Assembly (NCBI GenBank): GCA_947624165.1
Contig: CANQJC010000009.1
Location: forward strand, 1 to 64,000
DNA: 64,000 nucleotides
Source of the DNA: an uncultured Clostridia bacterium
Lineage (GTDB): Bacteria; Bacillota; Clostridia; UBA1381
Direction of reading: 5' to 3'
Position 1 is the first letter of the stretch; each line of letters begins with the position of its first letter. The notes beneath the pieces were generated by a model, which saw only the letters and a program-made list of their open reading frames with translations, had not been told where the DNA came from and did no database searches. A program made the position numbers and the translations under genes. This document shows positions 15,282 to 19,209 of this stretch, in pieces.

Positions 15282-15844
15282 CCCTTCGGCGCGTTAGAAC
15301 ATTCAATAAATTTGTACAAATTTCCGTCGAACGTAACTCTCGGATCCAGTACGGAAAACATACGCATGTTTACCGCAATTCCCTTCCCCGCCGCCTTTGT
15401 AAGACTTTCCTTGCGTGTCCAAACAAAAAAGAAAGCGTCGGTCAAATCGCTTGAGGATTCGATAAATGCGGTCTCGTCGGGAGAAAAGAAACGTTTTGCG
15501 GTCTTTATGTCACATTCGCGGTACTTTTGAATATCTATACCGACGGGAGACGAAGACGACACGCATGCGGCGTAGTCTCCCGAATGTGACAGGTTTACAT
15601 AAATATCATTATGACGCGCCAAATATAATTTACCGTTTTTGTCGGTATCCCATAAGGGAATTTCATCTGTTCCCGTTATGTCCTTTACGGCGCGGCGAAG
15701 CAAAAGCTCCGCGCCTATGGACTCGGCTTTTTGTTCGCGTCGTTTAAGCTTCTTAACTTTTTCGATTCGTTTTTCGGATAAATAATTGAACCACTTATCA
15801 TCGTCGGGATTTATCGACGCAACGTTCATTATATATATTTTCAT
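15251..15844 (-). CDS. 4'-phosphopantetheinyl transferase
   Basis: Transfers the phosphopantetheine arm of CoA to carrier proteins. The 197-residue length and motifs place it in the Sfp/Gsp group: NLSHSGDYAACV, the Mg-binding GIDIQKYRE (about 103), and WTRKESLTKAAGKG (about 150). The partner could be a fatty-acid or secondary-metabolite carrier protein; none is encoded here. It is the last gene of the rnhB operon and overlaps the sirtuin gene by 4 bases. AcpS types are shorter (about 120 residues), so this is not the basic housekeeping AcpS. Confidence 0.9.
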   Translation of the reverse strand: MKIYIMNVASINPDDDKWFNYLSEKRIEKVKKLKRREQKAESIGAELLLRRAVKDITGTDEIPLWDTDKNGKLYLARHNDIYVNLSHSGDYAACVSSSSPVGIDIQKYRECDIKTAKRFFSPDETAFIESSSDLTDAFFFVWTRKESLTKAAGKGIAVNMRMFSVLDPRVTFDGNLYKFIECSNAPKGYRLSVCSLV

Positions 15845-16548
15845 ATTTTTAAGCTTCCCATTACCTTGCCTATTGGCTCGTTAATAACCAAATCCGCATT
15901 ATTGTCGGCGGGCGTCGACGCCTTGTTTATTATGACGAGCTTGCGTCCGTTGAAATAATTGACAAATCCCGCGGCAGGATATACGTTTAAAGACGTACCG
16001 CCGATTATCAGCACATCCGCCGCTTTGATATAGGCAACAGCCTTACTTATCGCGGTATCGTCAAGCATTTCTTCATACAAAACGACATCGGGCTTAATTA
16101 TACCTCCGCATTCGCACCTCGGAATACCCGTCGTATCGCGTATTGTTTCTATACCGTGCGGTTTGCCGCATTTCATGCAATAATTCCTCAGCGTGGAACC
16201 GTGAAGTTCTATTACTTCCTTACTGCCCGCCGCCTGATGAAGTCCGTCTATATTTTGCGTTATCACGGCTTTCAACACGCCTTTCTCCTCGAGCTTGGCG
16301 AGCGCGATATGTGCTTGATTCGGTTTTGCATCGTTAACAATAAGCTTGTCCCGATAAAACTTAAAAAATTCCTCGGTCTTTTGGATAAAAAATGTGCGGC
16401 TGAGAATCGTTTCGGGAGGATAATCGTACTTTTGATTATACAATCCGTCCACGCTTCTAAAGTCGGGTATCCCGCTTTCCGTGGAAACTCCAGCACCGCC
16501 GAAAAAAACAATATTATCGCTGCTGTCGATAATTTCCTGCAATGTCAT
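15841..16548 (-). CDS. cobB: NAD-dependent protein deacylase, Sir2 family
   Basis: Removes acetyl or other acyl groups from lysines using NAD+. In its 235 residues it shows the NAD site GGAGVSTESGIPDFRS, the TQNIDGLHQAAG motif with the catalytic histidine in IELHGS, a four-cysteine zinc site (CMKC about 120-123 and CEC about 142-144), and GGTSLNVYPAAG. The start has AAAGGAGG 9 bases upstream. It is coupled to both neighbours: a 1-base overlap with rsmE upstream and 4 bases with the transferase downstream. The target proteins cannot be read from the context. Confidence 0.94.
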   Translation of the reverse strand: MTLQEIIDSSDNIVFFGGAGVSTESGIPDFRSVDGLYNQKYDYPPETILSRTFFIQKTEEFFKFYRDKLIVNDAKPNQAHIALAKLEEKGVLKAVITQNIDGLHQAAGSKEVIELHGSTLRNYCMKCGKPHGIETIRDTTGIPRCECGGIIKPDVVLYEEMLDDTAISKAVAYIKAADVLIIGGTSLNVYPAAGFVNYFNGRKLVIINKASTPADNNADLVINEPIGKVMGSLKI

Positions 16549-17305
16549 TATAAAACGCCTCCTTTATTTATATCTCCAATTTCATACATTATCATCGCAA
16601 GCACCGCTTCGCCCGCAGTTTCCGTGCGCAGAATACGTTTGCCGAGCGTAACGGTCTCGATACCGTTTGCCCTAAGCTTCTCAGCTTCGCTTATGTCAAA
16701 GCCGCCTTCGGGTCCTATGATAAAGCCCGCGCTCTTTATATTCCCTTTGGACAAAAGAACGCTTCGAAGCGTTGTATTCTCCTCACATTCGTACGGTGCA
16801 AAAAATATGTCAAAATCCTTTGAACGGGAAATTACGCCGTCCAACGAGGTTATTTCCGATATTTGGGGTACAATACCGCGTCCCGACTGTTTTGCCGCCG
16901 CTTCGGCGATTTTTCTCCACCTGTCAAGCTTTTTGTCGGCGTCCTTTTTTTCGTTTATTTTTGCAACGCATCTCGACGTCGTAACCGGAACTATCTCGCT
17001 TATACCCAATTCCGTCGTTTTTGTATTATATATTCCATTTTTGACGCTTTGGGCAACGCTTGAAAAACAGTAACCTTCAGTTCAGGCTCGGACGAGCTTT
17101 TATTCTCGCCGGTAACGGTGCAAACAACGCGGTTCGGCGAGATCTCGGAAATGACCGCCGTATAATCCGTTCCGCTGCTGTCGCACACAGTGAGCGAGTC
17201 TCCGGGGCTTAGCCGTAAAACACGCGTTATATGCGTTACGTCGGACGTGTCTATTATGATTTTCCCGTCTGATATTTTATCTCTCGATACAAAAAATTTA
17301 GGCAT
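16548..17305 (-). pseudogene. rsmE: 16S rRNA (uracil-1498-N3)-methyltransferase, frameshifted
   Basis: The two halves of RsmE lie in different frames. The front part (17305 to 17000) runs MPKFFVSRDK to QALPKASKMEYIIQK and then leaves the family pattern as RRNWV-stop. The back part (from about 17022 down to 16548) resumes with TELGISEIVPV and holds the SPOUT knot motifs GFIIGPEGGF and LGKRILRTETA. One base is missing next to an A5 run (T5 at 17018-17022 on the plus strand); adding a base after CAAAAA restores QKATELG. Everything else is intact, so this is a recent single-base loss or a sequencing error. RsmE methylates the ribosomal decoding region and is dispensable in several bacteria. Confidence 0.88.
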
Positions 17306-18189
17306 TATAAATTCTCCGTTACTCTTTTAAAATTTTTATGTGTTATCTTTTCTATCACTTCATCGGAATATCCCATATCTTTCAGTCTGTCAAACAGCTT
17401 ATACAGATCCTGAACGCCTTCTATGCCCTGCGGCAGACAGTCTACGCCGTCAAAGTCGGTGCCGATACCAACGTTATTTTCACCGCCAAGCTCCATAAAT
17501 CGGTCGATGTGGCGTATAATATCGTCAATACCGCATTCGTGCCGATCGCTCAAAAATACGGGATAAAAATTAACTCCCACGCAGCCGCCGCTTTCCACGA
17601 TAAGCTTGAATTGCTCGTCGGTAAGATTTCGCGGGTGCGGACATAGACGGTCGGAACAGGAATGAGTGGCTATCATCGGCGCGGACGTTATTTTAGCAAT
17701 ATCGAAGAACGATCTGCGGTTCAAATGCGATACGTCGACGAGCATTCCGATCTCATTCATGGCACGAACAATTTTTGCCCCGAATTGCGTAAGTCCCCTC
17801 CGTTCGTCCTTTTCATACGCGCCCGAAGCGATATGATTGGAGTAATTCCACGTGAGCGCGGCGATTCGTACTCCGAGCCTGTAAAAACATCTGAGCGAGG
17901 AAATCGAGCGTATACCGTCGCCGCCTTCTATGCTTAAAATAGCATGGACGTTTTTCGGCATGGTTTTCTCCCGGGAGTAAAACGCGTCCAAAAGTTCAAC
18001 GACGCGCTCGGCGGCGCGGCTTCTGTGCGCCGGACTTACAAAGCATGCGAAAACCTGAGTATAATCAGCATATTCCGACATTCTTGAAAAATCAGCGTGA
18101 CAATTGTTTTCCGCGAGCGACGCGCCGAAGTCGCGCGCCATACAGAGCGTATCGGAATGTGCGTCAAATACCGAATAATTATGTTTCAT
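17305..18189 (-). CDS. Membrane-dipeptidase family (M19) metallopeptidase
   Basis: Zinc dipeptidase of the renal dipeptidase/AcyP family, cutting dipeptides and possibly acting on D-amino-acid or cell-wall peptides. The sequence shows the metal-binding HSD of FDAHSDTLCMARD, the bridging glutamate of SIEGGDG, SHLNRRSFFD, ATHSCSDRLCPHPRN and GTDFDGVDCLPQG. It has no signal peptide, so it acts in the cytosol. I start at 18189, where GGAG stands 8 bases upstream, giving 294 residues. The in-frame ATG at 18213 lies inside yraN and has no such site. It overlaps rsmE by 1 base in the operon. Confidence 0.92.
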   Translation of the reverse strand: MKHNYSVFDAHSDTLCMARDFGASLAENNCHADFSRMSEYADYTQVFACFVSPAHRSRAAERVVELLDAFYSREKTMPKNVHAILSIEGGDGIRSISSLRCFYRLGVRIAALTWNYSNHIASGAYEKDERRGLTQFGAKIVRAMNEIGMLVDVSHLNRRSFFDIAKITSAPMIATHSCSDRLCPHPRNLTDEQFKLIVESGGCVGVNFYPVFLSDRHECGIDDIIRHIDRFMELGGENNVGIGTDFDGVDCLPQGIEGVQDLYKLFDRLKDMGYSDEVIEKITHKNFKRVTENL

Positions 18190-18202
18190 AACATTATCTC
18201 CG

Positions 18203-18559
18203 TTAAAAAGCATTTTTTATGTGATTGATCTTGTTTATAACGCTCCCGCCGTTTTTTTCGGCATAAAACACTTCAACGATATCAAATCTTATATCGTTGT
18301 TTTCGATGTCGGTATAACATGCCGCGGCTTTCTTTATACGCGACTGCTTACGACTGTCGACATATTCGCTCGGCTCGCCGAATAAGTTGCTCCTTCTTGT
18401 TTTCACCTCAACAAAAACAATACAGCCGCCGTCCTTCGCGATGATGTCTATTTCGCCGCACTTTAATCTGAAATTACGCTTTAATATCCTATAACTCAAA
18501 TCCGACAGATATTTTACCGCCGCATTTTCGCCGAAATCGCCTATTTCCTTTGTATTCAT
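18203..18559 (-). CDS. yraN: YraN family (UPF0102) endonuclease-like protein
   Basis: The 118-residue protein has the restriction-endonuclease-like core: [19 protein letters not shown] and [10 protein letters not shown], where E, D, E and K match the nuclease-fold metal site. YraN next to rnhB is a very common pairing in bacteria and suggests a nucleic-acid task, but its reaction is not settled. It overlaps rnhB by 4 bases. Confidence 0.93.
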
Positions 18560-19209
18560 ATCTGTTCTCCCAGTATCTTTTTCAGGAATGTTTTCCTGTG
18601 AATTTCACACGGTCCGTACTTCAGAACGGCTTCCGTATGCTCTTTCGTGCCGTATCCCTTATTTCGTTCGAAACCGTATTCTGGATATTTATGCGCGACG
18701 TCCTTTATGAAACGGTCACGGCTTACCTTTGCCAATATTGACGCGGCGGCGATAGACGCGCTTTTTGCGTCGCCTTTTACGATCGTTTCATGCGGTATGT
18801 CCATTCCCGATATCCTGTTCCCGTCTATAAGAACAAAATTCGGTTTTACGGATAAACCGTTTACGGCGTCGTTCATCGCTTCATATGTGGCGTTCAGTAT
18901 ATTTATTTCGTCTATACGCTTTTCGTCCACACATGCAATATTATATGACACGGCTTTTTCCTTTATTTCCTCAAAAAGCTCTTCTCTGCGTTTTTCCGTA
19001 AGCTTTTTTGAATCGTTTATTCCCTTTATGATCGTATCGGGCTTTAAAATTACGGCTGCGGCATATACGGGACCGGCAAGCGGACCGCGTCCGGCTTCGT
19101 CCACGCCGGCGATATTAAGATATCCCGCCGACAAATATTTCCTTTCGATTTCGTACAATGAAAGCACGCGTTCTGTTTCTTCCGCGTCCGTAAGTCTTTT
19201 TCTCGGCAT
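18556..19209 (-). CDS. rnhB: Ribonuclease HII
   Basis: Cleaves RNA strands in RNA/DNA hybrids and single ribonucleotides in DNA. The active-site signature [15 protein letters not shown] appears at about residues 34-48, with [13 protein letters not shown] and the later acidic residues in [17 protein letters not shown] and [19 protein letters not shown] are also typical. The length, 217 residues, is normal. GGAG precedes the ATG. It is first in a six-gene operon running to 15251. Confidence 0.96.

Follow-up and report, generated by a model that had tools for sequence, protein, structure and literature searches.

A one-base frameshift in rsmE of an uncultured Clostridia bacterium: an ordinary singleton, by recent mutation or sequence error

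The window, by which we mean the whole stretch of 64,000 nucleotides analysed here, lies on contig C9 of the draft genome of an uncultured Clostridia bacterium (1,761,283 bases, 40 contigs, 81.9% complete). The rsmE gene found on its minus strand encodes the RsmE domains in their normal order but not as one continuous protein, the two being separated by a one-base offset at 17018-17022 (Table 1). In Pfam, the front frame matches PUA_4 (PF20260, E 4.6e-12, residues 18-64) and its protein, translated from the minus strand, terminates in KMEYIIQKRRNWV and a stop. The back frame, which translated from 17018 starts with TTELGISEIVPV and reaches its stop at 16548, matches Methyltrans_RNA (PF04452, E 1.5e-40) over profile positions 27-164 of 165. 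A sequence-only reading had proposed a single-base frameshift at the A5 run, and the two frames with their Pfam halves bear this out. An independent start for the back half is limited to a TTG at 17009, which lacks a good ribosome-binding site, and no second rsmE copy was found elsewhere in the 1.76-Mb, 82%-complete draft.

Table 1. Features of the rsmE locus, in window coordinates.
Feature	Position	Strand	Description
Peptidase_M19 (membrane dipeptidase family), upstream	17305-18213	minus	Intact; one-base overlap with rsmE
rsmE front frame	17305-17000	minus	101 aa: PUA domain, first SPOUT part, 5 off-frame residues, stop
A5 run	17022-17018	minus	Point of frame change; the intact frame of relatives goes on in the -1 sense
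rsmE back frame	17018-16548	minus	156 residues, TTELG to stop; SPOUT methyltransferase domain with GPEGG and TLGKRILRTETAGEA
Sir2 family gene, downstream	15841-16548	minus	Intact; one-base overlap with rsmE end

The lesion is isolated, as had been proposed from the sequence, because each of the 12 neighbouring proteins tested is encoded in a single open frame and matches its family in Pfam; they include the M19 dipeptidase, Sir2, a phosphopantetheinyl transferase, UPF0102, RNase HII and LuxS. The intact flanking genes of the earlier description are likewise confirmed, with overlaps of one base each at the M19/rsmE and rsmE/sir2 junctions, and sir2 has its own Shine-Dalgarno-like AAAGGAGG directly upstream. 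The stop that usually follows GDIN in RsmE has been lost (16548-16565, minus), apparently by substitution, which adds the five residues KGGVL; the extended end traverses the sir2 Shine-Dalgarno and finishes in TAATG, overlapping the sir2 start. The C-terminal end beyond GDIN varies in other relatives too. An antisense open frame of 305 aa (16156-17073, plus) that covers rsmE and sir2 was dismissed as a shadow frame, its counterpart in G001 having several stops.

Comparison of the same locus in close relatives, which the sequence-only reading had suggested, found these relatives in frame and the window's genome alone shifted. An rsmE match is present in 14 of the 16 genomes in the genus, the window's own included. 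The 13 congeners among them carry intact open frames of 248-259 aa; no match was found in the remaining two (88% and 81% complete). At the level of the family, rsmE is matched in 63 of 70 genomes, with a near-full-length domain in 59 and partial matches at contig ends in three (G018, G020 and G061), leaving the window's genome as the only one in which rsmE is broken, by a frameshift, inside a contig. The frameshift site is thus not conserved among the homologues.

The junction itself differs from what had been expected. Insertion of one base after CAAAAA had been thought to restore QKATELG, a motif that is absent from all 37 intact relatives compared at this point (one locus, L029, escaped the motif pattern), while all 13 congeners carrying rsmE have QKTTELG. 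Since the back frame already encodes the TTELG of this motif, it is the A run itself that has contracted, and no base beside it was lost. In seven of 13 close relatives (L016, L017, L022 and L025-L028, of the set L016-L028) the run at this place is A6 or A7 and the frames are intact.

Both halves of rsmE look conserved to the degree seen in intact relatives. The read-through RsmE shares 65.6-73.3% identity with the 13 congeners and departs at 5 of 121 columns that are invariant in the rest of the congener set (13 sequences), which ties for the highest count (others 0-5); when the set is widened to 26 sequences, it differs at 1 of 70 invariant columns (others 0-3). Identity to congeners is 55-68% and 70-76% for the two halves, compared with 57-67% for M19 and 78-85% for Sir2. 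Neither the invariant columns nor these identities revealed further decay beyond the frameshift in either half. As the halves are free of decay and evolve much like their neighbours, the break is either very recent or not real.

How often such frameshifts occur in this genome was estimated from a 464-kb sample, window included, which was set against the open frames in 2.0 Mb of three congeners. This matched about 162 distinct conserved places totalling 183 kb (about, since two shadow frames remain counted), among which rsmE is the only clean frameshift. The matched places contain 315 A/T runs of at least six bases, namely 216 of six, 83 of seven, 15 of eight and one of nine, and the assembly is therefore not generally rich in homopolymer errors. 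Several rows flagged in G000 were rejected, two with intact frames (C2 17572-19058 and C2 51320-52726) and three as shadows of opposite-strand open frames (C3 4913-5605, C2 2930-3277 and C3 48779-49243). The control genomes G015, G012 and G001 gave nine, six and five flagged rows (frameshift-type 2, 2 and 1), which are raw flags and not a clean comparison. Pyruvate formate-lyase on contig C7 of G000, a case that fell outside the filter, was also rejected as a second frameshift; it is a true gene split, because the C-terminal piece is served by a start and a ribosome-binding site of its own. This locus (L057, about 16658-19034, outside the window) consists of a core frame and, beyond a short gap, a small frame with a separate ribosome-binding site and ATG, which is about 76 codons long and contains the glycyl-radical motif RVSGY. 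Eight of the 16 genus genomes (G000, G002, G003, G005, G006, G007, G009 and G014) encode the C-terminal part separately, seven have it fused, and G004 fits neither class clearly.

We tentatively favour the view that rsmE in the assembled strain is a very recent null allele, which arose by one-base contraction of the A run and involves no special mechanism. Two collinear frames that span all of RsmE, together with the lack of a second copy, support it. The short A run at codons 95-96 would have contracted by a single base, most likely through replication slippage; translation would then halt after 101 residues and yield a fragment whose only domain is the PUA, and the SPOUT half would have no credible start beyond the poorly served TTG. 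With both of these effects, U1498 methylation of 16S rRNA would be lost, while sir2 should still be made via its own ribosome-binding site. The gene is non-essential in E. coli, and within the family it appears to be dispensable at times, as judged from the lack of a match in three of 26 genomes with at least 90% completeness and at most 5% contamination. The SPOUT domain of RsmE houses the dimerisation site as well as the catalytic one, according to the structural account in PMC5699498, and since the break divides this domain, neither fragment is likely to function alone, the front lacking most of SPOUT and the back its first part.

The absence of decay in either half is, however, also how sequence errors look, and a consensus or assembly error, or a minority-strain variant chosen by the assembler, with the real rsmE intact, is a very real possibility. 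The genome is a draft of many contigs, and the frameshift is a singleton of one base at a homopolymer with undecayed halves on both sides; singletons of this kind that are validated by BLASTp are expected, in the part of PMC3711429 that deals with them, to be sequencing errors and not genuine indels, which weighs against a null allele. The run of A5 or A6 is nevertheless short for a homopolymer error, and a single clean frameshift among so many conserved places and A/T runs of six or more speaks against an assembly filled with homopolymer errors, although one lone error at rsmE would still fit.

Alternatively, the frame could be restored during expression. In leaky or programmed -1 frameshifting, tRNA-Lys in the P site on AAA would slip back before the rare CGA and full-length RsmE with QKTTELG would be made. 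AAA would re-pair with AAA and the residues of the congeners would be restored exactly; of all arginine codons in the sample CGA is used least (335 of 5839), and both halves are still conserved. Yet no relative examined has such a site, all being in frame, and whereas both tandem codons re-pair at a classical -1 frameshift heptamer, only one of the two does so here. No stimulatory structure stands out in the 77 nt downstream (z 0.44; 127 of 200 shuffled sequences fold equally well or better). The A5 is also far shorter than the nine-base runs to which transcriptional slippage is linked for many genomes in the relevant portion of PMC1088944. We regard such slippage as very unlikely, and it is barely credible that the lineage makes RsmE solely by -1 tRNA-Lys slippage on the A5 before CGA, with frameshift efficiency setting U1498 methylation. 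Phase-variable switching of rsmE on and off via the A run seems most improbable as well. The longer runs at the same place in some relatives do mean that run length differs between species, but a run of A5 to A6 is short for a mononucleotide switch, all relatives examined are in frame, and rsmE is not known as a typical contingency locus; moreover, the 315 runs in matched places accompany no other clean frameshift. Given a short run, a site that lacks conservation and no outstanding structure downstream, neither programmed frameshifting nor phase variation finds support, so that from the three options of the sequence-only reading recent loss and assembly error survive and the phase-variable homopolymer does not.

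The locus shares with the known 16S rRNA m3U1498 methyltransferase RsmE (PF20260 PUA_4 plus PF04452 Methyltrans_RNA) its domains, their order and their motifs, and sequence comparison pairs the intact RsmE of one congener (L007) with solved structures of RsmE, among them 5vm8, 4e8b and 5o95. It differs in that the gene is not one open frame, and U1498 methylation is here a prediction from sequence. With genes that use transcriptional slippage on A runs, as presented in the same portion of PMC1088944, or programmed -1 frameshifting, it has in common that the frame changes on an A run, in a sense that slippage could reverse; it differs in a run of five rather than about nine, in a site that is not conserved and in that no stimulator was found. 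A further likeness is to the GeneTack singletons, classed as hypothetical pseudogenes or sequencing errors, in which a single frameshift is backed by homologues and Pfam but not common to the homologues; as far as the class is described in that part of PMC3711429, nothing sets rsmE apart from it, its frame being broken where those of the relatives are intact, as in a singleton pseudogene. The GeneTack authors treat such unshared frameshifts there as recent indels or sequencing errors.

Altogether, the rsmE break is an ordinary singleton frameshift, explained by recent mutation or sequence error rather than by a new mechanism, and its overall significance is small. If it is an error, it calls for caution about single-base frames in draft genomes. 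If it is real, an uncultured Clostridia-like bacterium would carry a natural null of rsmE, consistent with a dispensable gene.
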